DNA of 64,000 nucleotides. Origin: Basidiobolus meristosporus CBS 931.73. Lineage: Eukaryota > Basidiobolomycota > Basidiobolomycetes > Basidiobolales > Basidiobolaceae. The stretch is taken from contig MCFE01000129.1 of the NCBI GenBank assembly GCA_002104905.1, positions 96,098 through 160,097 on the forward strand, in the 5' to 3' direction. The translations under genes were made by a program, and so were the position numbers. The notes below the pieces were generated by a model, which was not told where the DNA came from, searched no databases, and worked only from the letters and a program-made list of their open reading frames with translations. Positions 44,800-64,000 of this stretch are shown here, piece by piece; positions within the stretch are counted from its first letter, which is position 1, and every line of letters starts with the position of its first letter.

Positions 44800-47700
44800 T
44801 TAGCCTAAATCTGTAAAAAGCCTTCTTAACCACATTGCTTCTTTTGTAGCTTCCCGGGCTGCCATATACTCTACCTCTGTGGTAGAAAGTGCTACAGTTG
44901 GTTGCTTTCTTAAATTCCATGAAATTGCTCCTTGACAGTGAAGAAAGGTGTATCCTGTGGTGGATCTTGTGTCTTCAAAATTTTGTCCCCAATCAGCATC
45001 AGAATATCCCACAAGATCCTGCTCTGAATCCTTATAAGTGTATCTTAAGCAGACATCAGCAGCTCCTTTTAGGTATCTGAAAATCCGCTTAACAACTTCA
45101 ACATGATCAGATCATAGTTCTGATTATGCTGGCTGACTACTCCCATTGAGTATGAGATATCTGGTCTTGTTCCAAGCATGAGATACATTAGACTGCTGAC
45201 TATAGATTGATAAGGAAAGTCAGGGCTTTCAGATGGCCCCAAGCTCTCTTGATTTGGTTGAGTTTTGACCAAGTTAAGGTTTGTCTCCATTGGGGTAGCT
45301 GCTGGTTTACAGTCTTCCAATTGATTTTTCTTTAGATATCTTGAATATACTTGGATTGGCTTAGGGTGATAGTCTGGCTACTTCTGTCTATGGAGAACTT
45401 TATCCCTAAGTAGTAACTGAGTTCTCCTAGATTGGACATCTTGAACTCTCTAGATAGGCTGGATTTAGACTCTTCCAATGTTGATTGGTTGTTGGTGGCT
45501 ATAATAAGATTATCCACATATAGAGCTAATAGAGCTGGATTTGCTCTATCTGGCTTGTAGTATATAATATAGTTAGCATTACTCCTTTTGAAACTCAAAG
45601 ATTCCAAATAAGAATCTATCTTGCAATTCCAGGCCCTTGGTGATTGTGTGAGACCATATAGAGATTTTTTAAGCTTGCAGACCAAATGGGGGTTATCTTG
45701 GCCAAAAAACCCATCAGGCTGGTCCATATACATGTCCTCATCAAGTTCTTCCTTCAAAAATGCAGTTTTACATCCATCCAATATATAAAAAACTTGTATT
45801 TGGCTGTAATAACCAATATCAATCTGATGGAATTAAACTTGGCTACCAGTGCAAAGGTCTCAGTATAGTCAAGTAATTTTGCTTGAGAGTATCCTTTGGC
45901 CACAAGTCTTGCTTTGTATCTTTCAATTGTACCATTAGCCTTGTATTTTGTCTTAAAGACCCATCTGCACCCAATTGATTTTTGGTTGATTGGTAATTTG
46001 GCCAAGTCCCAAGTTTGATTTTCCATCAGGGCCTGATATTCCTCAGTCATTGCAGATCTCCAAAACTTTGTCTGAGGGCTATTTAGGGCCTCTTTTACAG
46101 TCTGGGGCTCATCAATATGGACTGAATAGGTATAGGCTAAGTTTGTGCCCTCATTGATATAGTAATTTGGGCTATTTCTTGTCCGATTTGATCTCCGGGC
46201 ATTTGGTACTGGAATGATCACTTCTGGGATATTCCTGGGCACTGATTCTGGCTGAACCACAGTTGTAGAGTCCTCTGGAGTGAAAAAATTTCATTGTTTT
46301 GCTCTGATTCAATCCTGACAATTGGTGGACTTGAGATCAAATTTTTGTCATCATCTGATGTTGTTTTTTGTGAAAGTTTCAAAATTTTCATCAAACAACG
46401 CATCCCTGGACTTGATCAGCTTCTTTGCTTTGGTATTGTAGAGTCTGTATGCCTTACTCTCATTGCAGTAGCCCAAAAATATACATTTTACACTTTTTGG
46501 CTCAAATTTTGACTGATTTCCAGCCAGTTTTTTGGCATATGCTGTACACCCAAATATTCTTAGATGTTCTGCACTTGGTCTGTGTCAATACCATGCTTCA
46601 AATGGAGTAGAATCACAAAGTATTCTGTTATAACTCCTATTTTTAAGGTATACAGCAGTGGCAACTGATTCCGCCAAAAATTATAGGATAATTTTTGATC
46701 ATGGATCATAGATCTTGCCATATCAATTATTGATCTGTTAGCTGGTTCTGCTACTCCATTTTGCTGTGGGGAGTATGGTACAGTGGTCTCTTGCTTTATC
46801 CCATAAATTTTGCAGAAGTGGATGAAGAGTTTTGAGGTATACTCTCCACCATTGTCAGAGCGTATTTTCTTGATTTTTTCACCAGTTTCTCTCTCCACCA
46901 TGGCTTTAAACTCCCTGAACTTAGACAGAGCTTTTTCCTTTCTCTCCATGAAGTAGACCCATGTGTATCTTGTATAATCATCAATAAAAGTGATTAAGTA
47001 CTTCATCCCGCCTAAGGATAAATTTTGCATAGGTCCACACAGATCTGAGTGAATTAGATCTAATTTTTTCTTAGTTTTGATTAACCCAGAGCTCTTGAAT
47101 GGTTGTATGGCTTGTTTCCCATATATGCAGACTTCACAGTGCTCCAAATTAGCTGGGGGATCAATTTTTACTCCAGAAATTAGCTGATCTTTGATCATTT
47201 TACGCAAATAATCAAAATTGATGTGTCCAAATCTCCTGTGCCAAAGCATTGGTGTTTCTTCATTTAAGTTACTTATATTGGCTTCCAGATATGATGGAAT
47301 ATAAGTCAACTTGTATAGATTCTGATCTCTGATGCCTGAAGCAATATGGGTACCATTTTGATCAGTGATCCTGCATCCAGAATTGTCAAAACTGAAAACA
47401 AGTCCTTCTGCTGTGGCCTTGCTTACAGAGAGTAGGTTCTTGGCTATTTCTGGTACATAGAGTACTTCTTTAAAGGTCAGTGAATGGCTTCCTTCACTGC
47501 TTCTAAGGTTTACTTGGATAGTTCCTTCTCCCACTGCATCAAGTGTTCTATCATCACCCATGAAAACCTTCTTAATTGGAATTTCTTGATATTGGGTAAA
47601 GAGTTCATTTTGGTGTGTAAAGTGTTGAGATGCTCCAGAGTCAATATACCACGTCTGAGAATCCTTGTTTGTGGTCATATTTAGTGCAGATATGAATAGT

Positions 47701-47955
47701 CTATCTTCAGTTGTTGCAGCATTTCCATATTCTGGCTTCTTTAGCTGATAATCTCTCTTTTTGAGACACCGGTCTGATGTGTGTCCTTTCCTCTTGCAGT
47801 AACTGCAAAACAGGTTGCTATTGCCTTTGTAGGGTCTTGGGTACCTCCTTTGTTGATTATCATTGCTTATTAAAGCATTTTCTTCTTCCTTCTTTTTGGT
47901 GCTTAATTTTCTTAATTCTTCATCCAGGAGCCTTCCATATGTTGTAATTATTAAG
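44800..47955 (-). pseudogene. Copia gag-pol relic
   Basis: The frames read in copia order. They comprise the gag zinc knuckle (C-x2-C-x4-H-x4-C, CSYCKRKGHTSDRC), protease (DSGAS), the integrase HHCC region and DDE core (HRRFGH, HSDLCGPM, SDNGGEY, SPQQNGVAE), reverse transcriptase, and an RNase H end (GYSDADWG to ALSTTEVEYMA). Frames break near 46560, 46240, 45770, 45330 and 45060. The polymerase catalytic box reads YVDN instead of YVDD, so a metal-binding Asp is lost. The region is inactive. Confidence 0.93.
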
Positions 47956-48491
47956 TTAGGGTTAGGGGGGGAGACATTCACCAACAGGTGAAATCTTTAT
48001 TTCAGTTGAAACAAAGAAGCCAGCGCTGTGGTGGTGTATAAGTCCAAAGGGCAAAATACGGCCAACACTTCTCAAGTGTGAATGTGTGTGGGGTGTTCAC
48101 TGGGTGCAATAACCTCTGGCAAAAGCTTGCTAGGAATACTGGGTGTTTTGTCTAATCTAATGTGATGGGGGATAAAGCTTGTCAAGGGAAAACTATTGAA
48201 CTACAATCCCCAACTTAGTTGGTGTCTTAACAAAAGTTTATAATGGCTTTGATGTCCTTTGAGATGACAATGTACTAAAGCTTCCAAAGTCAAAACAACT
48301 GTAAACTCCACCAACAGGGACTTGATAAGAATGCAGCTTTGACCAATAGTTACAAAGACTGAAAAGTATCTTTGCCTGTACAAGAACAAACTTGGGAAAA
48401 CAAACAAATATAATAAAATATACCTACTCTGAGTATTCCTCACAAGTAGTGCCTCCAAGGTCAGTTGGCTGTCAGCGCGGTTTCCTGGGAG
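47956..48491 (-). mobile_element. LINE-A-tailed element with an unrelated body
   Basis: It begins with TTAGGGTTAGGG and the LINE-A tail: hairpin TTCACC-AACA-GGTGAA, then AAATCTTTATTTCAGTTGAAAC and AAGAAGCCAGCGCT. After about 85 bp the match ends. The remaining 450 bp match neither LINE nor the SINE by eye and have no convincing frame. The distal end is hidden by the gypsy LTR that starts at 48492. It could be a third passenger family using the LINE-A tail, or an older LINE with a different 3' region. Confidence 0.7.
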
Positions 48492-49099
48492 TGTCGTCAG
48501 GTCTGAGTCAGAAAATAGTGGTAATAGGTAGCAGTGATCTCACTAATCAATAAGTGAGAATATTGGAAGAGGGATGATTTATTTTAAGGGATAGCCTCCC
48601 TTATATACTTTTCTGCTGCTCAAATATTTGCTAGAAAATACTTTCCGGAAGTTTCCAGAAGGTAGTAGACAGCCAATCATGTCATTGAGTATTAAAAATA
48701 GCGCAAATTCTTGGCGGATTGCTCCATGAGACATAGTAGCACTTAGCCAATCAGGTAGTGGTAATATGAAACCTCTGTGTCATGTGGTTGCCTCTTATGG
48801 TAGTAGGATGAGAGGATTGTGAAACCAAGATGGTCACATGACATGGGCACTGTTGGGGTACTTGCCTTATAAGGTAACTATCTTATCTTGGCATCTTGGC
48901 AAGGGATAAGAATAGCTTGTGCAATGGGTTAATAGTGACAAATAGTTTGTCAGGTTGCATAGTAATGATCACATAGACAAAAATAGGAAGTATTGCAAAT
49001 TTGGGATGATAATAATATAGGCGGGGTAATCCTTTTTAGGGAAGTGAACGCATAAGAATGAGCACATCTGCCTGTGGGTGTCACTGTGATCCCACTACA
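48492..49099 (-). repeat. 3' LTR of the gypsy element
   Basis: The segment runs TGT to ACA and adjoins a strong polypurine tract (GAGAGGGGGGTGG on the minus strand, 49101-49113). With no second LTR to compare, the outer edge at 48492 is a best estimate from the TGT start. Confidence 0.65.
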
Positions 49100-49138
49100 T
49101 CCACCCCCCTCTCAGCTTTGAACTCAGGTCAAAGCAAA

Positions 49139-52100
49139 CTAAATGTGATGTGCGAAATTCCGGTGCTTGAATAGCTTAAGTCTGTTTCCTGCCACAGGTG
49201 CTCTCAGCGGTGTTTCATCAAATTCAGACAGGTAGTAGCTTCCATATCCAATCACCTTAGAGATAATATATGGGTCAGACCACTTATTGTCAAATTTGCG
49301 ACTCCACTGCTTGTCTAAAGTGGAATCATAGAGCAGTACTGGATCTCCTTGCAGTAATGGCTTTGGTCTAAGGCTATGTGACTTGTCAAATGGTTCCTTG
49401 TTCTGAAGTCTTGTCTCTTTGAGTTTAGCAGCTGCTTGGGTAATATCAAGTTCATGGTGATCAAGCTGTTTGATGCGTGTAGTCAGTAGTTCTTCTGTAC
49501 TCATTGTAGTCCCCCATTCTAGCATGTTCCAGGATGTTGAGTCAAGCTCTATGGGAAGAACGCAATCGTGTCCATAAAGCAATTTGAATGGAGATAGGCC
49601 TGTGCTGCGTTTTGTAGTGATTCTATCTGCCCAGAGTGCTAGATGAAGTTGTCTAGGCCACTGTAGTGTCATGTTGTTGCAGCTCTTGACTAGGGAGTTA
49701 ACTAAGGGGCCATGGCCCCTTTCAACCATTCCATTGGCCTGTGGGTGATACGTGGTGGTGAAAGCAATATGAATCTTGTACTGTGAGCAGAGTTCCTGGA
49801 TCAAATTTGAAGTCATTTCCCCTCGGTCAGCAACAAACTGGCTGATGCAGCCAAATCTGCATATTATATCTTCAAGAATAAATCTCCATATTGTGTGGCT
49901 TTTGTTATTGGATAGGGCTCAAGCTTCTACCCACCCACTCAGATCATCTCTGGCAACAACAAGGTACTTCTTGGCTCCAGCAGTTGGCATGTGGACCAGG
50001 TCAATGCCAACCTTGTGCCATAGACAAGGTGTGTAGGTTGGATGGAGCGGCTCCTCATATCTCTTGGTTGACCTTCTTTGGCAAATGTCACAAGATTCAA
50101 CAAAGTGTTGGACATCATGATACATATGCTCCCAGTAGTACCTACTGGAAACAACATTGTAAGTGGTGTCTCTGCCTCTATGACCACCGGGTCTTCCTTC
50201 ATGAAGGCTTGACATCATAGTCAGTTGTTCCAGGGGCTCAACTATAACTCTCCTTGGTGTCTGTCCAGGCTTTACTTGTTTGAAGAGGAGGCCATCCTTT
50301 ATGTAGAAATGATGGGCCTTCTTCCTGAGCTTTCTGAAATCATGTGGGCTCATTCCTGGTGGCTTCTCTAAGGTTCTCAGATAGTCTTGAATGGTGTTCC
50401 ACGTAGAGTTGCTGGGCTTCTTCACATGTAGTTATTGGATTTCTGCATCAATTATGTCATCAAAGTCAGGGTCCATATCTTCAGACAACTGTGGTCCCTT
50501 CCTAGAGAGTGCATCGGCCACAACATTTGTCTTGCCAGGGATATGTCTGACCTCAAAGTCAAACATTTTCAGCCATGCCATCCATCAATTTGTGGCATCA
50601 TCAGGTAGGTCAGGCTTGTTGATCATTCCTATAAGTGGCTTAGCATCTGTCTCCAGGATGAAATGTGTCATGTAGAGTTGTGATTTCAGCTTTCTCAGCA
50701 TCTTCACAACTCCTAGTAGCTCTCTCTTAATCTGTGGGTATCTTTGTTCTCTAGGAGAGAAGAGGCAGCTCTCATATCTGCAGGCATAGCGGTTGCCATC
50801 TTCATCATCTTGGCCAAGTAGTGCTCCAGCTCCTGTAGGGCTTGCATCCACTGTCAAGATAGGTGGGCATTCAGTGCTCTGATAGTCAAGAGGTCTCAGA
50901 ACTGGTGGAGATACTAAGGCCTCTTTTAGTAATTGCATGGCTTCTTCTTGCTCTTCTCCCCAGTTAAATGGGGCATTCTTTCTCTGTAGTTGGTAGATTG
51001 GTTCTGCTATCTCAGAAAATCTTGGGATCCAGATCCTAAAGAACCCACAAGCTGCCACAAAGCCACGAGCTTGTGTTAGATTTGTGGGGGTAGGCCAGTT
51101 GCATATTTTTTGTGTCTTGGAGTCTCCGGGTGAACGACCAAAGGTGTTGCATTTTTGTCCAACAATGGATATCTCTGATACACCAAAGCTACTTTTCTCA
51201 CCACTGATGGTGAGTCCAGCTTCTTCAATGGCTCCTAATATGGCATCATTGTCTGATATATGGTCATAGACAAACTTTCTTACTCCAGGCATAACTTCAG
51301 TTGTGTCCAGGAGTTTTGGTCCTTTGATGCCTATGTCATCAACAAAGACAGCAAGTTTCTCAGGTATAAACTGGTAGAGCACATTTACCATGCATCTCTG
51401 GAACTGAGCCACGGAGTTTGTTGCCCCTTGGCTAAGTCTTGTCATTCTTAACAGTCCAAATGGTGTCTGGAGTGCAAACATATCTCTTGATGTCTCATCT
51501 AGGGGGATCTGGTCATATCCTGAGTAGAGATCATATGTTGAGTAGATGGAGTGACCACTAAAGCTTTCTGCAAAGTCATCAATAGACGGAGGTATTGCGG
51601 CATCTCTGATGGTGACAGCATTTGCAGGTTGCATGTCTTGAATGAATCAGAGCTTCCCATTCTTCTTTTTGGTCACAAACCATCTGTTAGCAAAAGGTCC
51701 ATGGCAAGGTTCTAGGATACCAGCTTCAATCTTCTTCTTAAGTAGGTCATGCACATCAGCTTGGAGTCCTCTAGGTAGTGGGTAAGGCTTAAATGACCAG
51801 GGTGTGTGGGGCACTGTATGAATCTTGATAGGTTTTTCAACCGATGTCTTTAAGAGTCCCATCTCCTTGTCATTAGACTTGTTCCGTTGGATAGTGCCAC
51901 ATTGAGCCATGAGTGCCAAATGATGCCATAGTGTGCCAGAGAGGCCAATTGAGCCTCTACCTGGCCACAGGGTGTGAAACATAGCTCCGCATCTTCATGC
52001 AAGGCAGCCCCTGTGTTTCACCCATTGTGTTGGAGAAAATCCATTTTTTGACCTTTTTTTTTGGATCAATGTTGTGCAGGATATGTTAGAGCACAAGCAG

Positions 52101-54600
52101 ATTGAAGATATGCATCTGGTACTCAATACCCATGGCACTCTGAATCTAGCTCCTGTAGCTTGTATCATGTCACAAAAATGAATGGCACTATCTTGGTCCA
52201 CTGGTACTATCTGGCACTATAAGTGCTTTGTATAGATCTTACTTTAGGGCTAATATTTAAATATAGTGCCAGATAGTACCAGTGGACCAAGATAGTGCCA
52301 TTCATTTTTGTGACATGAGACAAGCTACTGGAGCTAGATTCAGAGTGCCATGGGTATTGAGTACCAGATGCATATCCTCAGCTCTCCTGTGCTCTTACAC
52401 ATCCTGAGCTACATTGATCCACAAAAAAAGGTCAAAAAATGGATTTTCTCCTGCGCAATGGGTGAAACACAGGGGCTGCTTTACATGAAGATGCAGAGCT
52501 ATGTTTCACACTCTGTGGCCAAGTGTAGGCTCACTTGACCTCTCTGGCACACTATGGCATCATTTGGCACTCATGGCTCAATGTGGCACTATCCAACGGA
52601 ACAAGTCTATTATATGAGAAAACCTTATCATGCCTTTTCAGGGTTTCTTCAAATAGTAAGATCTCCTCCGGTGTTAGGTTTCCATCACCAATGGTAAGTT
52701 GCTTAAGTCTCTCAGGTGTAAGTCGTATATCTTCTGGTGTTCCTTCTGGTGATCTGATGTAATCAGCAGGTTGAGATCCATCAGTTAAAGGCGTAAGTGA
52801 TGGTCTAATCTTCTGTTCCACTGTCTTGTACTTTGTGCAAACCATAGCTGTCTGCTCTTGTATACCTAATGAGCAGCTCCAACTGTTAGGGTGTATACTG
52901 TCAGGCTCCTCATCTTCTTCTATAACAAGATGTGTCTTCTGGCAAGCGGTATGTGTCCTCTTATTGTTGGGTGTTACCCCACAGAATGTTGACTGTAGTC
53001 CTGGGTTGGATTCTTGTATAGTGTACCACACTGACCCATCAGAATAGTTGGTAGTTGTAGCCTTAGTACTGGTCTCCCATGGTCTGCCTAACAGCAGGTC
53101 AAAGTTTGCCTTCTGGCATATAAAGAGGGGAAGCCAGACCTTGATTCCTTGTACCTCAATAGGGAACTTGTGCACTACACCATAGGGTGGGCTAGATCCT
53201 GAGTTTGCATCAGTCATGTTCCATCCAATATCTCTATCAACAGGCAGTAGCTCCTTGCTTCTAAGTGTCTTCCAGAAGTCTAGCGGCATAACACAAATCT
53301 CTGAACCACTGTCAATATGGCAGTCAACAAGGTCATCATATATATACCCTTTCACCACAGCAGTTGCAACTGAGTAAAAGGTCTTATATTTGGTAGCGTT
53401 GTCGCCCTTTTTGTGGTCTTCATGGTTTGTCTGGATTATATGGGTGTCCATATGTTCAACAGCCTGTCTTCTTGTTCTAAGCTGCTCATCAAAGGTCTTC
53501 CTAACAGATGGTGATACACTCATGATTTCTCCAACTGACAAAGTGAGGTTCTGCTTCAGCAGTTTCTCAGTAATCAATTGGGGGCTTGAGTAGCCTGCTA
53601 TCTTTGAGGTCATCTGAAAGTGAGGTAATGGGTCTTGGGTAGGCAGTGTTCCAGGCCTCTTGTCAATAATAACCTCAGGCTCTTCAAATTGTGGTCTTCT
53701 AAGGATGGGTTTGACAGGTTCTTCAGGAAGGTGTCTCTTAGTAGCAAAGGTGTCTACTTTGTATTTTCTGTTGTCAGGGCTGTTTGGACTCACTGTATGA
53801 GTCTCAATAGGGGCATCAACAGTAATCTTTCTAGTTGCTCAGTCAGACTTCTGGAAAAGGGCTCTCATTCCACCTCTTTGGAAATTAGTGGGAATCCTTT
53901 TTCCTTCCTTATCAGCAAGCATTCCATCAGCATCAAACTGTACTGCTCCTTCTCTAAGTAGCTGGCTAAGCTCTGAGCATTCTCGTCTGGCATGCTGAGT
54001 AGAGTCACACCAAATGCAGTGTCTAGGCAAAGCTCTTTGGCCCTCAGTAGCTACCTCAGCTGAGCCGTTAATCCTGAGGGCTAGCTTTTGTAGCTGTTCG
54101 GCAAGTTGGTCAATTCTGTTGGTAGTGTAGGTCTGATTGTCAGCAACAGCACTCTTTAGCTCCTTGGTTGGCTGGTCTGGCAGATTAGATGTCAGGAGTC
54201 TCATAAAGGTAGAAGTTTGCTTTGCCTCTATGAGTACACGTTTCAACTCTGCAAAGCAAGGAATGCCAGACTTGTCATCCTTGGCTGCATGTAGGTCAAC
54301 TTTCCTTGCCAATTCCTGGGGAAGCCCTTGTGCAAGGTAAAGTGTCATGGTAAACTCAGTTATCACCTAGGACTCTAGGAGTGGCTAGGCCATATCTTCA
54401 TATTGTTGAATGAACTCTTCAATTGGTAGCTTGGAGAGTCCCATCCTTCCAAAGTGTCTGAGGTCTTCAATTCCATAGTATATCTGGGGTCTGCCATACT
54501 TGGTCTGTATGTAGGTCTTCATTAAGGTCCAGTCAGTCAGAATGTCTCCTTGTCTGAGGAGCTTGGTAGTAATATCATCAGTGCAGTAGTAGGGGAAGTC
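49139..54600 (-). pseudogene. Gypsy gag-pol relic with CGA-to-TGA decay
   Basis: In order on the minus strand: gag (54600 to about 53840, with a zinc knuckle-like CIWCDSTQHARREC), protease (DSGSE), reverse transcriptase (YDLYSGYDQ, then VFVDDIG), RNase H (LTVDASPTGAG), the integrase zinc region (HRGRD to SCDICQRRS) and the integrase core ending HPQANGMVERGHG. The long frame is broken mainly by in-frame TGA (near 53840, 51645, 50584 and 49926). At several of these the family normally has Arg, so CGA-to-TGA change at CpG is the likely cause. The transposon at 51876-52607 also splits it. It cannot make an intact polyprotein. Confidence 0.92.
51876..52607. mobile_element. 732-bp palindromic MITE (Tc1/mariner-like, TA target) inside gypsy pol
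   Basis: The two halves are inverted copies of each other: GACTTGTTCCGTTGGATAGT at the left matches the complement at the right, and pairing continues nearly to the centre (about 52230). TA flanks both ends (51874-51875 and 52608-52609). Removing the element and one TA rejoins the gypsy frame exactly, which fixes the boundaries. It has no coding capacity, so it depends on a transposase elsewhere. The arms differ at scattered sites and by a few small gaps. Confidence 0.92.
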
Positions 54601-55166
54601 TTAGGGGGGGAGACAGTCACCAACAGGTGAAATCTTTATTTCAGTTGAAACAAAGAAGCCAGCGCTACTGTTGTAGCTTTGATACAAGAGTGTGTAGCTG
54701 AGGGGAATTTGTAGGTAAGTTAATAAGAAGTGATGATAGTTCTTCAGTGCTCAAGACACTGTTCAGTGGGAAGGGGGGTAGCAAGAGAGGTAAGAATGAC
54801 TTGTGAACAACATTAATGAGGGGAATGTGATAAGGGTTAGGGGAGGGAAAGTCACCAAGGTAGGTGAAATCTTAGGGTTAGGTTTAGGGGGGGAGACAGT
54901 CACCAACAGGTGAAATCTTTATTTCAGTTGAAACAAAGAAGCCAGCGCTACTGTTGTAGCTTTGATACAAGAGTGTGTAGCTGAGGGGAATTTGTAGGTA
55001 AGTTAATAAGAAGTGATGATAGTTCTTCAGTGCTCAAGACACTGTTCAGTGGGAAGGGGGGTAGCAAGAGAGGTAAGAATGACTTGTGAACAACATTAAT
55101 GAGGGGAATGTGATAAGGGTTAGGGGAGGGAAAGTCACCAAGGTAGGTGAAATCTTAGGGTTAGGT
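54601..55166 (-). repeat. 283-bp composite unit, two tandem copies
   Basis: Units at 54601-54883 and 54884-55166 look identical. Each holds TTAGGG plus 236 bp of LINE-A 3' end, then TTAGGGGAGGG with a LINE-B tail cut to 35 bp (hairpin TCACC-AAGGTA-GGTGA), then TTAGGGTTAGG. The following full-size LINE-A at 55167 starts with the same 236 bp. The unit thus records two insertions and two telomere repairs, then was duplicated as a block. Confidence 0.93.
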
Positions 55167-55230
55167 TTAGGGGGGGAGACAGTCACCAACAGGTGAAATC
55201 TTTATTTCAGTTGAAACAAAGAAGCCAGCG
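55167..55230 (-). other. LINE-A 3' tail with hairpin and telomere junction
   Basis: Read on the minus strand, AGAAGCC-type spacing leads to AAATAAAGATTTCACC, a 4-nt loop, GGTGACTGTCT, seven C, then TAA of the telomeric complement. The hairpin stem is TCACC/GGTGA. The same tail, with different loops, ends every LINE and SINE copy here. Confidence 0.9.
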
Positions 55231-58000
55231 CTACTGTTGTAGCTTTGATACAAGAGTGTGTAGCTGAGGGGAATTTGTAGGTAAGTTAATAAGAAGTGAT
55301 GATAGTTCTTCAGTGCTCAAGACACTGTTCAGTGGGAAGGGGGGTAGCAAGAGAGGTAAGAATGACTTGTGAACAACATTAATGAGGGGAATGTGATAAG
55401 GATTGATATTCATCATAAAGGGAGTGTGCTGCTGCAGATATTGCTGCCAAAGGTCTGTCAAGTACTTCAGGTAGGCCAGCTTGGGTTTTTCTGACTGCTG
55501 AATATAGTGAGCAAACTTCTTGACTTCAGGATCACCAAGTATAGTTCTCCAGCAGGAGCCAGGTGTAGTGTGGTGTGTTCTCTTCCAGGTCTTAATCAGT
55601 GGGTTGTTGCAGATGTGAAGTCTGAGGTATAATCTGGTTCTAAGGTAGAGAAGTCTGATCTTATAGGGCATAAACCCAAAAGCACCAAGAATAGCATGTC
55701 TGTAGGGGCATTCAGGCAAATGAGGCACCAAGGAGGTAATGCACCATACTGCAAACTTGTCAAGCTTAGTGCAGTCTCTAAAAGTAAGAGAGAGAAGTGG
55801 TAAGCCAAATTCCAGGACAGGGAAGACAAACTGCTTGAGTAGAAGGAGGCAGCTGGGAGCTGAAGTTGTAGGAGGAGTAACAGCCAGTAGCTTGTGGAGT
55901 GCCTGTCTTGCTAGGATAATTCTCTTCTTCAGGTGTGCTCCAGAGTCTAGTCCAGTAGGAAGGAAAGGAAAGCCAGGATATGTAGCAGAAACCTGAGCAG
56001 GTAGAGTGGAGTTCTCCAAGTTGATGGGAGAGCCCAAAGGTACTGTCTTTGCAATGGAAAGCTGGAGATTATTCTTCTGCAGATACTGGTGGATGGTCTG
56101 GGAGTCTTCTTGCACACTGGAGGAGGATATTCTGATGTCATCAGCAAAGAGAGTAACCAGGCAGTCAGCTGAGAGTCTTGGGAAATCATTCAGGAAGATG
56201 GCAAACAGTATAGGACCAAGCACAGAGCCTTGAACCACTCCATTAGGAACTGAGAACACAGCTGATTGCTCACTTGGGTGCAGAATTCTTGCTTGTGGAT
56301 CCAGAAACAGAGACCTGACAAGGAGGGTGAGAGAGGTACTGGAGAAGCATTGCAACTTGGACCAAAGCAGATTTCTGTCAACTGAATCAAAGGCCTTAGT
56401 AATATCAAACAGAACAGAGGGATACTTGCACTGGAGAGAGTGATCTTGGCTAAGTATGACAGCATATTCCCAAGGAGAGGCCAGGAACAAAGCCAAACTG
56501 TGCAGGATGAAACTTGAGGGAGTCAGAGTAGAGCTCCTGAGCAAGCAGAAGCTCAAACACCTTTCTGCAGGTGGGCAGCAGAGATATTGGCCTGTAGGAG
56601 CTAGGATCCAGGTGCTTTCCTTTACCCTTGTACAGTGGCAGAACATTTGCAAAGGACCATTCCTCAGGAGTAGAAAGCTGGGCTGAGCATTGCTGAAACA
56701 GTGGAAGCAGAAGTGCAGACATGGCCTTGGTACTAGTCTTCAGAAGCTCATAGGAGATTGTGTCCACACCTGGAGCAGTATAGTTGGGAAGCCTCTTGAG
56801 CACATTATGGATTCTCCTTTGATCAAGTGCAAGTGGGTTGGGCAGAGTCTTGAAGTCAGAATGAAAGCCAGGAGTTGAGTACTGCTTTGTAGAGAAGAAG
56901 ATGTTAGCCAGTTGTTCTGTTGAAGGTAACTTCCTGGAAGAGGGCCTCATTGCCCTGTAGAGTCTTGATACTGTTCTTGTTATAGAGTTGGAAGATTGCA
57001 GAGGCAAAGAACTCATAATATGATCCCAGAGCTGAGTATGCAGAGTGTGGTGAATTGCCTTGGAGTGGTGTATTGCTGTCAGGAGGAGTTTCTCTGTTTT
57101 TGGGTTAGGGAAACTCAGGTAGCTTTGTTGCAGGGCTGAAACAATGGATTCCCATTTTCTTGAGGTAACAGCAGTAGTCTTGCATGGCAGTGAGAGGGAG
57201 GCAGACACCAGAATCAGATGCTTCACAAAGAGCCAGGCATAGTTGAGATCATCTGGCAGAGAAAGTAGCAAACTGGCAAGCTTCAAGTAGTTCCCAAAGT
57301 CTTTCTTCTGATTCTTGGTAGCTTTGTGGGTGAGCACAGTAAGTTTTGGCAGCTTCTTCTTCACAACTGGTTGCATAGAAAGGGACCAGGCTGGGTGGTC
57401 AGAGGCTCTCAAGGATCCTAGCTCAGCTCCAGAGAATTGCTTAACTTCATTCACAAAGTAGAGGGCAGCAGCAGAAGGGCAGATCCAGTCAACACATCTT
57501 TTCTCAGATTGAGCACCTAGTGCTAGCAGGTGGCTTTCTCTCAGGAAGTTCAGTAGGAATGTAGACCTTGGCTTCATTCTTGCAGTCAGAGTAGTCTTGT
57601 TCTCAGGATGGGGAATGTTGAGATCTCCAAGCAAGATAACAGGTGTTGATATAGATTGTTGGTATTGCTGAACTTTCTGGCATATAACTTGCACTTCCTG
57701 AAGGGCAAGACTTGGAGGCAGATAGCAGAGCACCAGACTGATAGTTGGCAACTGAAGAGCAGCACAGTAAGGGGAGTAAAGAGGAACACAGAGCTGAGGA
57801 GTATTGATGGTAGAAGAGATGAAGCAGATAGAGGAGGTATTCTTTGTTCTAGGAGTAGAAAAGCAATATAGATTAGTCAAAAGTATAGAGGGTAGCTGAA
57901 CATCAATCAAACACAGGAGGGAAAATCTTGAAAGAAGTCTCTCTAGAGTTGGTCTTGATGGCTGTATGCTGTTGCAGTTAAGCAACAGAACTTCAGGTAG
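55231..58000 (-). pseudogene. LINE-A ORF2: APE endonuclease and reverse transcriptase, one frameshift
   Basis: About 922 codons if the frameshift is ignored. The N-terminus begins NCNSI, the first block of APE-type endonucleases, followed by GDLNIPHPE and SDH, which carry catalytic residues. The reverse transcriptase has FDITKAFDSVD (motif A), NGVVQGSVLGP (motif B) and FADD (motif C). No RNase H or CCHC knuckle is visible after it. A run of three G at 56469-56471 (minus strand) has one base more than LINE-B at the same place and shifts the frame between the QFGF block and motif A. There are no other breaks. Translation would start by passing the UGA at 58001-58003. Confidence 0.92.
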
Positions 58001-58707
58001 TCAGGCAGAGGTTGTGGCTTCTTCAGAGGCAGCATTGATAATGTGACCTGCAGAGTCCCAGAGCTCTTCAAATGGTGCATCACTTAAGTCAGCAAGGAGG
58101 GAAATGGCATGATTCTTGAGGAAGTATGCCACATCATAGGAGGGGGCTTGTCTCTTGATGGCAGCAAAGAAAGACAGAATGGCAACATGGGCTGGTGACT
58201 TGTTGAACAGTAGAGAGTCAGAGGATTCAGATTCTTCAGGCACTATCTTGAAGTCAGTTTTCAGCCAGTTAAGGTTCTTCTCCACAAAGGCAACAAATGG
58301 GTCAGCAATGTTTTGGTCTAGGATAACCTCCAGAATCTTCCCTTTTCTCCAGGCCAGGTTGACAATTCTTGAGAGCTGAATATTGCATGCCTTGAGTGCT
58401 TTCCTGATGTTGGAAATGGGAGTCCAGGGAACTTGCTTCAAGTACACCACAGTCCAGGTAGAAGCTGGTGGTAGGTTTGCTGGGGGCTTGTAAGTCCTTC
58501 TGTGTTGCAATGGAGCTGCAGTAGTCAGATTGGATTCCACATTCTCAGTAGAAGGTTTTCTTGATGTGTCTTGCTGAATAGTACTGGAGCTGGATGTGCT
58601 GATAATTCTTGCTAGAACCTTGCCTGCATAAGTCTGAGGTATAGATGAGGTGACTGTAGAGGTGGTGGCAGCTGGTGCAGGTGGAGAGGCAGAGACTTGA
58701 GCAGGAA
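58001..58707 (-). CDS. LINE-A ORF1, 5'-truncated nucleic-acid-binding protein
   Basis: About 235 residues are open up to the TTAGGG junction. No ATG starts the frame, so the N-terminus is lost; codons upstream of 58707 belong to telomeric repeat and the neighbouring SINE tail. A Ser/Thr/Pro-rich stretch leads to a conserved core shared with LINE-B ORF1 (TYKPPANLP, then NIRKAL, RIVNLAWRKGKILEVILD and a C-terminal helix PFEELWDSAG). The core has a beta-alpha-beta pattern that could be RRM-like, as in ORF1 of other non-LTR elements; that assignment is inference. The frame ends at UGA, and the next codon, CUA, continues in frame into ORF2. Confidence 0.82.
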
Positions 58708-58787
58708 GGGTTAGGGGGAGGAAAGTCACCAAGTGGTGAAATCTTTATTTACTTATGACAAGTATTTAAAGAAGCCAAGTTAATCTG

Positions 58788-58930
58788 AAGTAATTCCTAG
58801 AAAGCTAGGTCTGAGAGATATCTTCCTGGTAAACCAGGTCTGAGAGTTGAGAAGCTGAGTGGTACTATATTTCCTAGTTAGCTAGGTCTGAGAGAGGTTT
58901 CCTGGAAAGCCAGGCCTGAGAAGTGAGAAT
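58788..58930. repeat. Array of four 14-nt hairpins in the SINE body
   Basis: Four perfect-stem hairpins alternate CCTAG/CTAGG and CCTGG/CCAGG with 4-nt loops; each is followed by a CTGAGA-type word. In the second SINE copy they lie at 59748-59761, 59777-59790, 59825-59838 and 59853-59866. The pair-of-pairs spacing (29, 48, 28) shows a 77-bp tandem duplication. One loop differs between copies while the stem does not. Confidence 0.8.
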
Positions 58931-59172
58931 CTGAGTATATCTGAGGTGAGTTGTACTGATTTGCGGTAGCTTGTTTGTGGCCAGAATGGCCAGTAGACTG
59001 GGGGAACTGAGGGGTATTTCTGGGCGATCACTGGCCAAATTTACTAGGCAAATTTGACCAATTAGCATTTCAAGGATTTCAGCCAATCAGAGCCTTTACT
59101 TTGCCCGATGGTTGATCAAGCCATCTCCCAATGAGCACACATCAATTTATTGATCAAATTTTGTTGGATCCA

Positions 59173-59226
59173 GGATTTGAACCCACAACCATGGGTATGG
59201 AAGGGTTAGGGATAACCACAAGGCTA
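59173..59226 (-). promoter_or_regulatory. Putative RNA polymerase III A and B boxes of the SINE
   Basis: On the minus strand TAGCCTTGTGGTTA resembles the A box, and GGTTCAAATCC is a canonical B box 29 bp later. The flanks do not fold into a good tRNA cloverleaf (the acceptor and D stems fail), so this is a tRNA-derived relic rather than a tRNA gene. CCCTAACCC lies between the boxes. Confidence 0.6.
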
Positions 59227-59237
59227 AGTGTTCTTGG

Positions 59238-59646
59238 TTAGGGGGGAGACAGTCACCAACAGGTGAAATCTTTATTTCAGTTGAAACAAAGAAGCCAGCG
59301 CTACTGTTGTAGCTTTGATACAAGAGTGTGTAGCTGAGGGGAATTTGTAGGTAAGTTAATAAGAAGTGATCATAGTTCTTCAGTGCTAAACACACTGTTC
59401 AGTGGGAAGGGGGGTAGCAAGAGAGGTAAGAATGACTTATGAACAACATTAATGAGGGGAATGTGATAAGGATTGATATTCATCATAAAGGGAGTGTGCT
59501 GCTGCAGATATTGCTGCCAAAGGTCTGTCAAGTACTTCAGGTAGGCCAGCTTGGGCTTTTCTGACTGCAGAATAAATTCAGCAAACTTCTTGACTTCAGG
59601 ATCTCCAAGTATAGTTCTCCAGCAGGAGCCAGGTGTTGTGTGGTGT
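59238..59646 (-). mobile_element. LINE-A 3' fragment, 409 bp
   Basis: It contains the LINE-A tail and the last ~130 codons of ORF2, with one premature TGA. The 5' truncation meets GGGTTAGGGTTAGGG at 59647. It is very similar to the matching part of the long LINE-A copy. Confidence 0.93.
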
Positions 59647-59661
59647 GGGTTAGGGTTAGGG

Positions 59662-59902
59662 TTAGGGGGGAGGAAAGTCACCAAGTGGTGAAATCTTTAT
59701 TTACTTATGACAAGTATCTAAAGAAGCCAAGTTAATCTGAAGTTATTCCTAGAAAGCTAGGTCTGAGAGATATCTTCCTGGTAAGCCAGGTCTGAGAGTT
59801 GAGAAGCTGAGTGGTACTATATTTCCTAGTTAGCTAGGTCTGAGAGAGGTTTCCTGGAAAGCCAGGCCTGAGAAGTGAGAATCTGAATATATCTGAGCTA
59901 AG
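59662..59902 (-). mobile_element. SINE 3' fragment, 241 bp
   Basis: It matches the 3' half of the SINE at 58711, including all four body hairpins and the tail. It is 5'-truncated at the next TTAGGG (59903). It is preceded by about 2.5 telomeric repeats (59647-59661). Confidence 0.93.
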
Positions 59903-59991
59903 TTAGGGGGAGGGAAAGTCACCAAGTTGGTGAAATCTTTATTTGGGTTAAGAACTAATCTAAGTACAAATAAAGAAGCCAATTAAGAGGT
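59903..59991 (-). other. LINE-B 3' tail with hairpin and telomere junction
   Basis: The transcript-sense order is TGGCTTCTTTATTTG, a spacer, AAATAAAGATTTCACC, loop AACTT, GGTGACTTTCCCT, five C, then TAA of the telomeric complement. It is the parent of the SINE tail. Confidence 0.9.
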
Positions 59992-62841
59992 CTAGAACCT
60001 CTCTAATAAGTAATCTAATTTATGTTTTGTTTCATCTCTAATGTTTGTTTCAATAAAGTAAAGCTCATCAGGGGTAAATATAAAATTCAGGGGTTTTGGG
60101 GGAAGTACAAATTGTAGATGTTTCTGATCAATATAATCCAAGACTGGAACCCAGCCTGGGATTAGGTGTAGTAGGAAAGGTGTGTGGACTTGTAAGTAGC
60201 TCTGCCACATAGATCTTAGATGGTCCTGAGCCAGTAGTCTTGGTTTCTCAGCTTTTTGAAGTTTTGAAGCAAGCTCTGTTACTACAGCAGAGCCAACCAG
60301 GGTGTGCCAGCAAGAAGATTTCAGGGAGGAGTTAGATTGAAGCCATAGTTTGATGGAGGGGTTATGTGATTTCTGAAGTTTGACTAGGAAGGAAGCCCGG
60401 AGATAGATCATTCGGATTTGGTATGGGTAGAACCCAAAGGCTCCATTAGTTGCATGGATATAGGGAGATACTGGAAGATAAGGTACCAAGGATCTGATAC
60501 ACTGATGGAGAAATTTATCCAGGCGGTGAAGTTCTCTGGAGGTTAGGGGTATAATGTGGAGACCAAATTCAAGTACTGGCAGCACATAATGCTTCAGAAG
60601 TATAGGGATCTTTTGAATTGGAGTGTCTGGAGTGACTACTACCAGAAGCTTTTTGAGAGCCTGTTGGGCAAGACGGATCCTATTATTCAGGTGGAGCTTT
60701 GAGTCAATCCCATGTTGACAAAATGGCAGACCTAGATATATTGCAGTTTGTTGTGGCAGAATGCTAGTGTTCTGTATAGTTGTAGTGCATCCAATTGGGA
60801 CTGTCTTGGAAATTGAGAGTGAGAGGTTGTTGGCAGCCAAGTACTTCTCAATGATGGCAGTGTCTGCTATGGGATTAGGAGTAGCAATCTTGATATCATC
60901 CGCATAGAGAGTTAGTAGTGGATAGGGAGAGTCTGGTGAGGGGCCTTTTGGAAATAAAGGAAAGTCATGTAGGAATATCACAAATAGTAAGGGACCTAGT
61001 ACAGATCCTTGGACTACTCCATTTGGAACCTCATAAGTCTCTGATGTGCAACTTGGATGCAAAATTTTGGCTGAGTTCTCACAAAATAGAGAACGTACAA
61101 GAAGGGTCATTGGTAGTGTGGTAACTGCTAATAGCTTTCTCCAAAGCAGAGCTCTGTCCACAGAGTCAAAGGCTTTAGTAATGTCAAACAGAATGGTTGG
61201 CAATGAGAATTGAAGTGAATGATCATGGCTTAGCACTACAGCCATATCCAAGGAGAGTTTGGGCAAGAAGCCAAACTGAGAAGGATGGAATGGATATAGT
61301 TGAGATTGCAAGGATCTTGCTATCATAAGCTCAAAGATTTTCCGGCAGGTTGGTAGGAGTGAAACTGGCCGGTAAGAACCTGGGAGTGAGTGTTTCCCCT
61401 TCCCTTTGTATAAGGGTATTACATTTGCCTGTGACCAGGCCTTTGGGGTAGTCAATTGTTGGGCACAGATAGAGTAGAATGGGAGAAGTAAGTGACTCAT
61501 TTTGGAGTAGCACACCCGGAGTAGATCGTAGGTAATCAAGTCATGTCCAGGTGCAGTATTTGCAGGAAGCTTCTTTAAAATTTTCTCCAGAAGCTTTGCT
61601 GAAACCACAATTGGAGATGTTGGACTGGTGGATATGTTACCAGTATGGTAGAAAGGAGGAGTGGGATGCATGGTTGAATCAAAGAATATAGGGGCCAGTT
61701 TGTCTGGTGATGGTATACTCCTTGCTTGGGGTCTCATGGCTTTGTATACTCTTGATATGGACCTTGTGGTGGCATTCATATTTACTAAGGGCAAGGTATC
61801 CATGATATGAGCCCATAATCTAGTATGCTCAGTGATCTGTAGTGACTTGGAGTAGGAGATTGCGCTTTCCAGGAGGTTCTGTGTTTTTGGGTTAGGGAAA
61901 CATAGGTAGCTGGAATTTAAGGCAGAAATGATGGATTTCCATTTAAGTTGGTTTGCAGATGGCTTTTGGTAGGACTTGGTGGGCAGGGCCAGACAGCCAG
62001 TGATTATGATGAAATGCTGGTAAAATAGCCATAATGCATTTATATCATCACAAATCCATGCAGGTAAGCTGGGAAATGCATATTCTGTAAGCAAGGATAG
62101 GTAGTTGGCAAAGTCCTGTGTCTGTGATACTGAAGCTTTGGCTGGCAGGATTGTAAACGGCTGAAGAAGGGTGCCAATTGGTAGGGTTTTTCTGGCAGAA
62201 ATGATAATATGTATTGGCTTGTGATCAGATTTCTCTAGTGAACCACAGCTGATATCCTCTGGAATGCTTGTAACCTGGTGGATGTACTGTAAGGCAGCTG
62301 GAGTAGCTGTTACCCAGTCAACACAACGTTGAGCTTGCTGAGTGTTTACAGTGACCAGATGATTTTGTCGGAGGAACTTTTTAAAGTGCTCCTCTCGGGT
62401 TCTAAGTCTGGATGAAATAGTGGTGATATTTTCAGGGTGGGGGATATTTATATCTCCCACTACCATACAAGGGATTGATGAGCTGTTGATGAATTCTGAT
62501 GTGGCCAAGAAAATTGCCAGTGTTATGGAGTTAGACAGAGATGGAGGGAGATAGATAATAATGGCTACTATAGTTGGAAGTGTTAGAGCATAGCAGTAAT
62601 ACTCATAGATGATGGATACATTTGCTGAGGGTGCAAGCTTAGAAGATGAAAGAGCAACAAGTGCCATTGAGTGAGCTGGAAATTTTGGGTGAGCAGATGA
62701 ATATGCATTCAGTCTAGAGGGAAGTTTTGGCAACTTAACATCAATTAGTAGGAGCAAGGAATATTCCTTTTTCAGTAAGTTTTCTAATTCAGCTACAGTT
62801 GGAGTGATGGAGTTGCAATTGAGTAAGAGTATGTTCTGTAG
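59992..62841 (-). CDS. LINE-B ORF2: APE endonuclease and reverse transcriptase, intact
   Basis: 949 codons from the CUA after the UGA to the stop at 59992. Residues 8-11 (NCNS) open the APE-type endonuclease, which continues with GDIN at about 129-132 and SDH at about 205-207, blocks that hold catalytic residues. The reverse transcriptase follows, with SYRPVSLLPT, FDITKAFD at about 552-559, NGVVQGSVLGP at about 607-617 and the YADD box at about 646-649. No RNase H or CCHC region is seen. The enzyme would nick DNA and copy its own RNA from the 3' end. Whether it cuts TTAGGG or simply uses the chromosome end is unknown. There is no ATG at the frame start (the first codons are CUA CAG AAC), so expression as an ORF1-ORF2 fusion by readthrough is likely. 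Confidence 0.93.
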   Translation of the reverse strand, partial: LQNILLLNCNSITPTVAELENLLKKEYSLLLLIDVKLPKLPSRLNAYSSAHPKFPAHSMALVALSSSKLAPSANVSIIYEYYCYALTLPTIVAIIIYLPPSLSNSITLAIFLATSEFINSSSIPCMVVGDINIPHPENITTISSRLRTREEHFKKFLRQNHLVTVNTQQAQRCVDWVTATPAALQYIHQVTSIPEDISCGSLEKSDHKPIHIIISARKTLPIGTLLQPFTILPAKASVSQTQDFANYLSLLTEYAFPSLPAWICDDINALWLFYQHFIIITGCLALPTKSYQKPSANQLKWKSIISALNSSYLCFPNPKTQNLLESAISYSKSLQITEHTRLWAHIMDTLPLVNMNATTRSISRVYKAMRPQARSIPSPDKLAPIFFDSTMHPTPPFYHTGNISTSPTSPIVVSAKLLEKILKKLPANTAPGHDLITYDLLRVCYSKMSHLLLPFYSICAQQLTTPKAWSQANVIPLYKGKGKHSLPGSYRPVSLLPTCRKIFELMIARSLQSQLYPFHPSQFGFLPKLSLDMAVVLSHDHSLQFSLPTILFDITKAFDSVDRALLWRKLLAVTTLPMTLLVRSLFCENSAKILHPSCTSETYEVPNGVVQGSVLGPLLFVIFLHDFPLFPKGPSPDSPYPLLTLYADDIKIATPNPIADTAIIEKYLAANNLSLSISKTVPIGCTTTIQNTSILPQQTAIYLGLPFCQHGIDSKLHLNNRIRLAQQALKKLLVVVTPDTPIQKIPILLKHYVLPVLEFGLHIIPLTSRELHRLDKFLHQCIRSLVPYLPVSPYIHATNGAFGFYPYQIRMIYLRASFLVKLQKSHNPSIKLWLQSNSSLKSSCWHTLVGSAVVTELASKLQKAEKPRLLAQDHLRSMWQSYLQVHTPFLLHLIPGWVPVLDYIDQKHLQFVLPPKPLNFIFTPDELYFIETNIRDETKHKLDYLLERF

Positions 62842-63639
62842 TCAGGCAGACTCTGAGGTTGCCTGTTCCTGCTGAAACTCTTGCACTGCCCTTTGTAAAT
62901 TTCCAGAATTATTCCACAACTCTTCAAATGGAGCTTGCGTAATGTCTTTCAGGATTCTAATTGCTTCCTCTTTCAAGAAGTAGGCCACATCATAGGTTGG
63001 AGTCTGTTTCTTAATGGCAGCAAAGAAAGCCATAATTGCCATGTGAGCTGGCGGCTTGTTGAATATTCCTGGCTCAGTGTCCATTGACTCTGGTGGAATG
63101 ATTGTGAATTTGGTAGGCACCCAGTTTAGATTTTTTGCCAGATACTTAGTCAATGCAGTGGAGAAGTTTCTGTCTACAATCATTTCTAGGATCTTTCCTC
63201 TTCTCCAAGCTAGGTTAACAATTTTTGAAGTGTCAATATTTAGAGAGCGGAATGTATGTCTGATGTTTGATATAGTAGTCCATGGAACATTGGCAAAGTA
63301 TAGCAAGGACCAATTCTGGAGCTGAGGTAAGTTTGCTGGAGGCTTATAGGTAGACTTCCTGGCAGGTTGTGTGGTAGGCTTTAGTGTTTCCAAGGTAGCA
63401 AGTTGTGGTTGAGACTTTTTGGAATTACGTATGACTTTGGAAAGAATTCTGCCAGCAACTGTGTCAGGAATGTTAGTACTCATTGATGGTGCAGGGCCTG
63501 GCTCCTGGTACTGCTTTTGTAGAATACTTGAGTATGTCTCTTTTTGTTTTCCTTTATCCAATGTGCTATGCCTTGGAATGGGATTTTGGGGAATAGAGAC
63601 TTCAGGTATCAACTCTGGGGTCTGGTGATTGTCCAACAT
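62842..63639 (-). CDS. LINE-B ORF1, nucleic-acid-binding protein ending at a putative readthrough UGA
   Basis: 265 residues from the first ATG (63639). The same frame stays open upstream to 63797, adding about 50 codons with a leucine-zipper-like coiled coil (ELKQRVQILEEKLEAQ). It then continues into the telomere, where the CCCTAA strand reads Pro-Asn without stops. The true start is therefore uncertain and the copy may be 5'-truncated. The core (TYKPPANLP, LLYFANVP, NIRHTF, KIVNLAWRRGKILEMIVD) matches LINE-A ORF1 and may be RRM-like. It ends SESA-UGA, and the next codon is CUA, in frame with ORF2. Confidence 0.85.
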   Translation of the reverse strand: MLDNHQTPELIPEVSIPQNPIPRHSTLDKGKQKETYSSILQKQYQEPGPAPSMSTNIPDTVAGRILSKVIRNSKKSQPQLATLETLKPTTQPARKSTYKPPANLPQLQNWSLLYFANVPWTTISNIRHTFRSLNIDTSKIVNLAWRRGKILEMIVDRNFSTALTKYLAKNLNWVPTKFTIIPPESMDTEPGIFNKPPAHMAIMAFFAAIKKQTPTYDVAYFLKEEAIRILKDITQAPFEELWNNSGNLQRAVQEFQQEQATSESA

Positions 63640-63797
63640 TGTTGCTTGAGCTTCCAGCTTTTCCTCTAAGATTTGAACTCTCTGCTTAAGCTCATCATTT
63701 GACGCTATAAGTGTTGCATTGTTTGGAGCCAGGTCAGGTGTTGAGTTATGAAGGCAGGTTGAGCAGCGTTCTAACTCCTTTGTTTGGTCATCCAGGC

Positions 63798-64000
63798 TTA
63801 GGGTAGGGTTAGGGTTAGGGTTAGGGTTAGGGTTAGGGTTAGGGTTAGGGTTAGGGTTAGGGTTAGGGTTAGGGTTAGGGTTAGGGTTAGGGTTAGGGTT
63901 AGGGTTAGGGTTAGGGTTAGGGTTAGGGTTAGGGTTAGGGTTAGGGTTAGGGTTAGGGTTAGGGTTAGGGTTAGGGTTAGGGTTAGGGTTAGGGTTAGGT
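63798..64000 (+). repeat. Terminal telomere, (TTAGGG)n
   Basis: About 34 uninterrupted TTAGGG units reach the end of the window; only the second unit is irregular (TAGGG). The G-rich strand runs toward the right end, as expected for a true chromosome terminus. Confidence 0.98.

Follow-up and report, generated by a model that had tools for sequence, protein, structure and literature searches.

The window, a stretch of 64,000 bases, is the final 64 kb of contig C324 (160,097 bases) in an assembly of 89.0 Mb and 1311 contigs, and its last base is the last base of that contig (160097). It ends in an array of TTAGGG repeats, and the DNA behind this array is built from telomeric retroelements, that is, long and short interspersed nuclear elements (LINEs and SINEs). 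By local comparison, the order from position 54601 outward is a 283-bp tandem, a LINE designated LINE-A, a SINE designated SINE-B, a piece of LINE-A, a TTAGGG tract with a piece of SINE-B, a second LINE designated LINE-C, and the terminal array (Table 1). The first-pass annotation of this DNA had described head-to-tail units of one orientation from 54601, each beginning with TTAGGG and a conserved tail, and this arrangement was found up to the terminal array. The same position had been taken as the inner limit of the zone; units do begin there, but older pieces reach inward to ~42.8 kb.

Table 1. Features of the telomeric end of the window, with the outer array first and the older inner pieces below (ORF, open reading frame)
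Feature	Position	Strand	Basis or remark
283-bp unit, two perfect tandem copies	54601..55166	-	sequence comparison
LINE-A, 5' truncation inside ORF1, 3536 bp	55172..58707	-	local comparison
LINE-A ORF2, two overlapping frames (56450-58000 and 55231-56739)	55231..58000	-	
LINE-A in-frame UGA (then CUA) separating ORF1 and ORF2	58001..58003	-	
LINE-A ORF1, C-terminal portion	58001..58707	-	45% to LINE-C ORF1, 151 residues
SINE-B, 529 bp, RNA polymerase III A and B boxes in head, shared tail	58708..59236	-	
LINE-A, 5'-truncated, 406 bp aligned	59237..59647	-	
TTAGGG tract of 21 nt and 5'-truncated SINE-B, 246 bp aligned	59648..59904	-	
LINE-C, 3895 bp, ORF1 interrupted by telomere	59905..63799	-	
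LINE-C ORF2, 949 open codons	59992..62841	-	endonuclease-like, reverse transcriptase
LINE-C in-frame UGA (then CUA) separating ORF1 and ORF2	62842..62844	-	
Terminal (TTAGGG)n array, ~206 bp, contig end	63794..64000	+	
Gypsy-type fragment, cut at 54600	48028..54600	-	reverse transcriptase, RNase H
TTAGGGTTAGGG and 61-bp LINE-A 3' end (98%)	47956..48027	-	sequence comparison
Copia-type fragment, apparent cut ~47955, then TTAGGG and LINE-A end	45332..47955	-	Pol_BBD, integrase
Old SINE-B copy, 5'-truncated	43915..44178	-	89% identity
Eroded tail-like stretches	near 42914 and 43467	-	read by eye
Old diverged tail AGTCACCATTATGGTGAAATC	43125..43145	-	read by eye
Old family E copy, 3' end beside TTAGGG-like sequence	42810..42905	-	79% to L072 over 99 nt

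The elements fall into five families: LINE-A, LINE-C, SINE-B, a Gag-only family D and a short family E. Families A-D share a 3' tail of the form GTCACC-loop-GGTGAAATC, the loop being 4-6 nt long, and the tail ends in a run of C, mostly CCCTAA in the sense orientation. This stem-loop folded in 4 of 4 strands tested and was clearly steadier than shuffled sequences only in LINE-A (z of -3.95 for LINE-A, -0.65 for SINE-B, -2.04 for LINE-C and -1.25 for D); the stem was fixed by the search pattern, and its constancy is thus no independent evidence. SINE-B carries a putative internal RNA polymerase III (Pol III) promoter, with an A box (one mismatch) and a B box (no mismatch) whose starts are 43 nt apart. 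These boxes appeared in 0 of 10000 shuffles, under criteria chosen after the match had been seen. Family D is ~1 kb long and has a single ORF of 242 codons (L073), with ~115 nt further to the tail. The D product is 35% identical to LINE-A ORF1 (expect value [E] 7e-23) and has a relative in Basidiobolus ranarum (50%). With a Gag-like ORF1, no reverse transcriptase and a telomeric tail, D resembles HeT-A of Drosophila in make-up, and no kinship is claimed. A segment behind one D tail raised the idea that D is a hybrid with a long terminal repeat (LTR) element, which was dropped as the other D copies are Gag-only. At another locus (L063:44-962), nine 103-bp tandem repeats are ~78% like the D 5' end and contain GGTTAGGG; they are perhaps promoter repeats in the 5' untranslated region of another family. 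Family E starts with TTAGGGTG(A/T)AGGTGTTRTAGTAAGGG and has its own tail, unlike that of A-D; the part of a query that reached this family gave 42 further pieces among the best 40 candidates of 113 scored.

ORF1 has the same layout in both LINEs, namely a zinc-ribbon-like stretch (sub-threshold Pfam matches only), a coiled-coil-like stretch and a conserved C-terminal domain, which is the part shared between LINE-A and LINE-C at 45% identity over 151 residues. One LINE-A copy (L057) extends to the ORF1 start. ORF2 encodes a LINE-type reverse transcriptase (RVT_1, E 1.6e-20), whose closest solved relatives are LINE-1 ORF2p (E 1.7e-22, profile). The enzyme had been predicted to carry an apurinic/apyrimidinic (APE)-type endonuclease, and our data support an APE-type-like domain at the N terminus: the motifs GDxN and SDH are preserved in 6 of the 6 proteins that cover them, and PF14529 and PF03372 each match 4 of 7 proteins (E <= 0.1; best 3e-6 and 7.4e-5, respectively). 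Behind the reverse transcriptase, no CCHC-like or full restriction-like endonuclease motif was present in 8 of 8 proteins, and short R/KPD- or R/KHN-like matches were seen in two of these proteins only.

ORF1 and ORF2 lie in one frame in both LINEs and are separated by UGA-CUA, a leaky stop context. The stop at this boundary was UGA in all 100 listed LINE-A and LINE-C copies (171 found), the search pattern allowing any stop codon there and fixing the CUA behind it. The first Met of ORF2 is residue 59 in LINE-C and residue 142 in LINE-A, in the latter downstream of the GDxN motif. Because this Met lies so far in, readthrough of the UGA would be the simplest way to ORF2. A conserved in-frame stop followed by an open frame with no early start is the configuration of a readthrough gene, and we predict from the sequence that ORF2 is made in this way. 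Apart from the junctions, TTAGGGTTAGGG or GGGTTAGGG also occurs inside elements, in the LINE-A 5' region (L057, L026), in the SINE-B head (~59200) and in ORF2 of LINE-A (~57105) and LINE-C (~61890), where it coincides with the invariant P-N-P of FPNP. Telomere addition could start from these internal motifs, or their presence is accidental.

A genome search for the tail, AGTCACCAAN{1,8}GGTGAAATC, gave 1465 forward and 133 reverse matches (1598 in total) and none when the pattern was read backwards. The location of copies was assessed on contigs >40 kb, as shorter ones do not allow an end to be told from an interior. Contig sizes were interpolated from the size-ranked names (39 known sizes fall monotonically; error ~1 kb), and measured sizes underlie only 11 of 77 ORF1/ORF2 boundaries and 10 of 88 LINE-C tails; three matches fell just past estimated ends, and four doubtful contig sizes were then measured. 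All 77 ORF1/ORF2 boundaries were no more than 20 kb from the end faced by the element's 5' side (100 listed of 171), as were 87 of 88 LINE-C tails, the other being at 21.8 kb (100 listed of 138). The pattern behind the latter count was meant for all tails, matched mostly family C and is used as a count of C only. Tails after three TTAGGG units were all within 20 kb of such an end (58/58; all 66 listed), and general tails were so in 37 of 39 cases and within 22.2 kb in 39 of 39 (first 100 of 1598). For family E, 35 of 36 pieces were near the end to which they point. LTR elements served as controls and, among the best 40 candidates for each, were near the end pointed to in only 7 of 29 cases for Gypsy and 7 of 29 for a Copia-like repeat. 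The latter (L042:8301-9140) had been considered unique, an idea dropped when it proved to be dispersed and Copia-like. On contig C979 (267,059 bases), an outward-pointing tail lies near each end. Among the listed copies on these contigs, the elements are confined to ends in one orientation, by exact patterns that overlook decayed internal relics.

These counts bear out the proposal that the LINEs and SINEs are dedicated to telomeres, with the 3' end inward and 5' truncations. The arrangement is the rule in this genome. The first-pass annotation had raised the questions of whether copies exist outside telomeres and whether every junction lies in TTAGGG; no internal copies were listed on the long contigs, and some junctions lack TTAGGG, as described below. 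Nor did the listed copies on long contigs include the many internal ones lacking TTAGGG that would have spoken for a dispersed element. An artefact of assembly would be another source of such ends, and the orientation of the contigs is odd in that (TTAGGG)3 matches 8002 times forward and 103 times in reverse. The 1598 tails, however, are on both strands and point outward, those printed stand in many different contexts, and the LTR elements behave normally. So far as it is testable, this end shows no assembly error, and we give an artefact next to no credence. Separately, a (TTAGGG)3 tract with no A-D element adjoining was seen midway along a 345-kb contig (L001, C1:184730-184747), and several contigs of 12-20 kb terminate in telomere, perhaps as alternative versions of ends.

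Thirty of the 54 TTAGGG arrays found were examined. In 29 the array runs to the contig end over 142-298 bp (median 226), and the thirtieth (L046) is interstitial. The neighbour of the array is a telomeric element in 25 of 30 (24 of A-D, one of E), with differing cut points, and other DNA adjoins it in 5 of 30, including a Copia-like piece and a transfer RNA (tRNA) cluster. In the latter (L050:1434-1506; 6 tRNAs in 1.7 kb), the array begins at tRNA-Lys, which indicates that ends are also healed at non-element DNA. The array pattern required a C before the array; with C thus pre-selected, 9 of 14 resolvable joints shared 1-2 bases.

Inside the arrays of elements, 3' ends are fixed and 5' ends differ at most junctions, with the 5' sides outward. 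Such features are what is left when a chromosome end primes reverse transcription. Among the first 100 tails listed, 81 had TTAGGG <=12 nt ahead of them, and TTAGGG was present within 22 nt in 60 of 68 distinct junctions at the fetched loci; genome-wide, TTAGGG before a tail matched 1219 + 96 times, a few of these being double counts of one tail. Re-parsing of 66 junctions left 61 measurable and 5 not. The tract had no perfect unit in 7 of the 61, was 6-12 nt long in 52, and was 21 nt and 42 nt long in one each. At least three units precede only 66 tails in the genome, as against 1598 tails in all. No poly(A) was seen at the 68 printed junctions.

The clearest single case is the Gypsy-type fragment cut at 54600, which is capped by a LINE-A end. 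In 4 of 4 other fetched Gypsy copies the sequence at this point is AAGTCTTCAGCC and reads on; here it is AAGTCTTAGGGGGG, with two bases shared. Thirty-four internal junctions were mapped to a reference copy. Ten were dropped because mismatches near the joint, or an end past the limit of the reference, kept them from being resolved, and 4 more because they coincide with the very end of reference copies. Among the 20 left, 17 had a microhomology of 1-4 bases (mean 1.6) with the TTAGGG tract. Simulated random joints had microhomology in 47-49% (mean ~0.75; P ~6e-4 to 9e-4). Together, the short tracts, the capping of a cut Gypsy element and the microhomology suggest that what served as primer was not a full telomere but an end already eroded or broken.

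The silkworm elements SART1 and TRAS1 have an APE endonuclease, and a comparable enzyme could nick double-stranded TTAGGG and insert the element within the array, later breakage shortening the inner repeats. The endonuclease motifs are indeed preserved here in every protein covering them, tracts of at least three units do precede 66 tails, and in the MoTeR LINEs of Pyricularia oryzae interstitial tracts of at least three TTAGGG are break-prone whereas those of up to two are stable, so that short ones would remain (PMC7367193, excerpt). SART1 itself, however, requires three or more repeats together with a long poly(A) tail (PMC7265360, excerpt); neither at least three adjoining repeats nor a 3' poly(A) is the pattern here, where tracts are <=12 nt in 59 of 61 junctions and a LINE-A end sits on the cut Gypsy with a single TTAGGG. 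We therefore regard insertion by nicking as improbable.

The 283-bp unit raises another explanation, in which arrays grow chiefly by recombination among ends (break-induced replication, unequal exchange, slippage) and retrotransposition is old or rare. The unit comprises a 233-bp LINE-A 3' end, TTAGGG, a 34-nt tail stub of C/D type and TTAGGGTTAGG. Because its two tandem copies are perfect, the piece at 54601-55166 must have grown by recombination or slippage and not by separate insertions, and growth of this kind is documented in MoTeR arrays (PMC7367193, excerpt). Fixed 3' ends beside differing 5' ends argue against recombination as the chief process, as do the open 949-codon ORF2 of LINE-C and the finding that the majority of copies 100 bp or longer match those of the window at >93% and are arranged in mixed orders. 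As the main source of the arrays, recombination seems to us quite unlikely, rather more so than nicking.

The inner part of the window is consistent with outward growth. The innermost pieces are on the whole more diverged, as expected if new elements join at the outer end; the references were the window's own copies, and the order of ages is a rough one only. The cut of the Copia-type fragment at ~47955 is probable and not exact, since a diverged copy in L031 continues beyond that point. The Gypsy-type fragment starts with TGTGG at 48028 and was perhaps inserted into the LINE-A copy at 47956-48027. The Gypsy region also contains an inverted repeat (51874-52609) with arms of 348 nt, 92% complementary, and a spacer of 40 nt. 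The flank at 41.9-42.8 kb, apart from an edge repeat, occurs once in the genome, and no allelic version of this end was found. Far inside, at 704-949 of the window, is a minisatellite of AGACCCCTTTA-like units with periods of 29 and 73 bp.

The host had been taken for an ascomycete-type fungus. This is ruled out: a sulfate permease encoded in the window is 83% identical to that of B. ranarum, which makes the host Basidiobolus-like, and listed B. meristosporus proteins reach 56-59% at best. A permease named from the public B. meristosporus assembly matches a single locus here, on contig C394, at 89-98% per piece, which does not support the two assemblies being identical. Basidiobolus is an early-diverging fungus. 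NCBI taxonomy places it in a separate phylum, Basidiobolomycota. Telomerase had been expected beside the elements, and a telomerase domain is encoded in the genome, as two Telomerase_RBD stretches on contig C880 above the Pfam cut-off, one of which has an in-frame TAG that is perhaps within an intron.

From these results we think it rather probable that a telomere-dedicated consortium of elements is added where chromosome ends have eroded or broken, by reverse transcription primed at the end itself, and that telomerase then re-caps these ends. LINE-A and LINE-C would supply ORF1 and, via UGA readthrough, ORF2. The enzyme would recognise the short 3' stem-loop and the C-rich end (CCCCCCUAA) common to A-D, and the same enzyme may also mobilise the Gag-only D and the Pol III-transcribed SINE-B in trans; family E, with its different tail, may or may not share it. 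The C-rich end of the RNA would anneal to the 3' G-strand of a chromosome that erosion or breakage has left with 0-2 TTAGGG units, and complementary DNA (cDNA) would be synthesised outward from the chromosome end. Incomplete copying and later erosion would produce the 5' truncations on the outer side. Telomerase would then restore an array of ~220 bp, and on the next failure of the end another element would join. The first-pass proposal that the elements extend or cap the end together with telomerase may hold; what the sequence shows is that elements were added to ends, not that ends need them.

Either telomerase or the CCCUAA end of the RNA itself may supply the first TTAGGG of a junction. 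In a stricter form of end priming, telomerase would first add 1-2 repeats and the LINE would then prime on GGG, bare ends never being healed by a LINE. The G-run at junctions varies (4-7 G in 53 of 61, range 2-10), as if a GGG end had paired at different places in the C-run, and this favours a telomeric primer; joints that share few bases also resemble telomerase priming. Tracts of up to two units in 59 of 61 junctions, on the other hand, are unexpected from telomerase alone, and perfect TTAGGG is missing at 7 of 61. The upper limit of two units speaks for a step limited by its template. The stricter form comes close to an even chance in our judgement. At the other extreme, the LINE enzyme could itself be a second, telomerase-like healer of bare or broken 3' ends that needs 1-4 nt of pairing, writes the first TTAGGG, acts in trans for Gag-only and SINE RNAs and obtains ORF2 by UGA readthrough. 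We offer this only tentatively and consider it doubtful.

Several observations weigh against end-primed addition of the consortium with later re-capping by telomerase. Perfect TTAGGG within 12 nt is missing at 19 of the first 100 listed tails, and no tRNA in SINE-B was found by Rfam or ARAGORN. Glu is expected in endonuclease motif II, and the residue at this position (the alignment column of P0001 D34) is Asp in 4 of 4 covering proteins. LINE-C itself has no Pfam endonuclease match, and an AlphaFold model of ORF2 has a mean predicted local distance difference test (pLDDT) score of 50.1, mostly <50 in the endonuclease part, which leaves the fold unconfirmed. If a TTAGGG tract were nicked and everything outside it then lost, the traces would be identical. 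Given the breakage of MoTeR tracts, the short tracts may be survivors and not the state at insertion. The exact tandem copies show that recombinational growth occurs too.

Telomeric retroelements of other organisms allow the arrangement to be placed. Drosophila telomeric elements have their 3' end inward and poly(A) at that end, and MoTeR2 of Pyricularia is non-autonomous. The published accounts cited below are represented by excerpts, and the likenesses and differences refer to these. MoTeR1 and MoTeR2 (Pyricularia [Magnaporthe] oryzae) are, like the elements here, in TTAGGG telomeres with the 5' side outward, truncations, short interstitial tracts and a partner sharing 3' sequence (PMC7367193). 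MoTeR1, however, has a restriction-like endonuclease (PMC12857005), whereas the LINEs here are APE-like with two ORFs and have Gag-only and Pol III SINE partners. FoTeR of Fusarium oxysporum is similar in that LINEs lie at TTAGGG ends and truncated copies outnumber full ones, and differs in its single ORF with a restriction-like endonuclease, in having 3-7 repeats at the 3' junction and in its 4-55 copies per genome (PMC12857005). CNL1 of Cryptococcus neoformans likewise forms LINE arrays at ends beside telomeric repeats, but is an R2/MoTeR-like element and was also recovered within a gene (PMC12810828). HeT-A, TART and TAHRE of Drosophila share the head-to-tail arrays and the presence of Gag-only HeT-A beside reverse-transcriptase elements; Drosophila is without telomerase (PMC5009743), whereas a telomerase domain is encoded here. 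SART1 of Bombyx mori is a telomere-specific LINE beside telomerase-type repeats that needs at least three repeats and poly(A) (PMC7265360), in contrast to the mostly <=2 units and C-rich end without poly(A) found here. In the available part of one survey, the telomeric retroelements listed were SART/TRAS, GilM/GilT, Zepp1, MoTeR1, Athena and anole Tx1-1, MoTeR1 being the sole fungal one there (PMC10088271). Our literature searches found no report of a telomeric SINE and, judged by title, no relevant work on telomeres of Basidiobolus or of early-diverging fungi more broadly. The combination of APE-like LINEs, Gag-only and SINE partners, predicted readthrough and a telomerase-bearing Basidiobolus-like fungus was likewise not found in these searches.

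Fungal telomeric LINE arrays were already known from MoTeR, FoTeR and CNL1, which according to the excerpted accounts have a restriction-like endonuclease or are R2-like. As these share the architecture, the present case is a variant of a known phenomenon, and it is the combination that appears to be new. End priming can be tested directly against nicking, given an open ORF2, a defined tail and a large number of junctions. The usual limit of about two TTAGGG units is also the one described for MoTeR, whose host is only distantly related (PMC7367193, excerpt), and may be a general rule for interstitial telomeric repeats, though 66 longer tracts exist. If the LINE enzyme were a second healer, telomerase and retroelements would be interchangeable caps at the same ends. 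The arrangement is Drosophila-like, with another class of endonuclease than that of these fungal elements, in an early-diverging fungus that keeps its telomerase gene, and it appears to be an intermediate, reached independently, between telomeres made by telomerase and telomeres made of retroelements.

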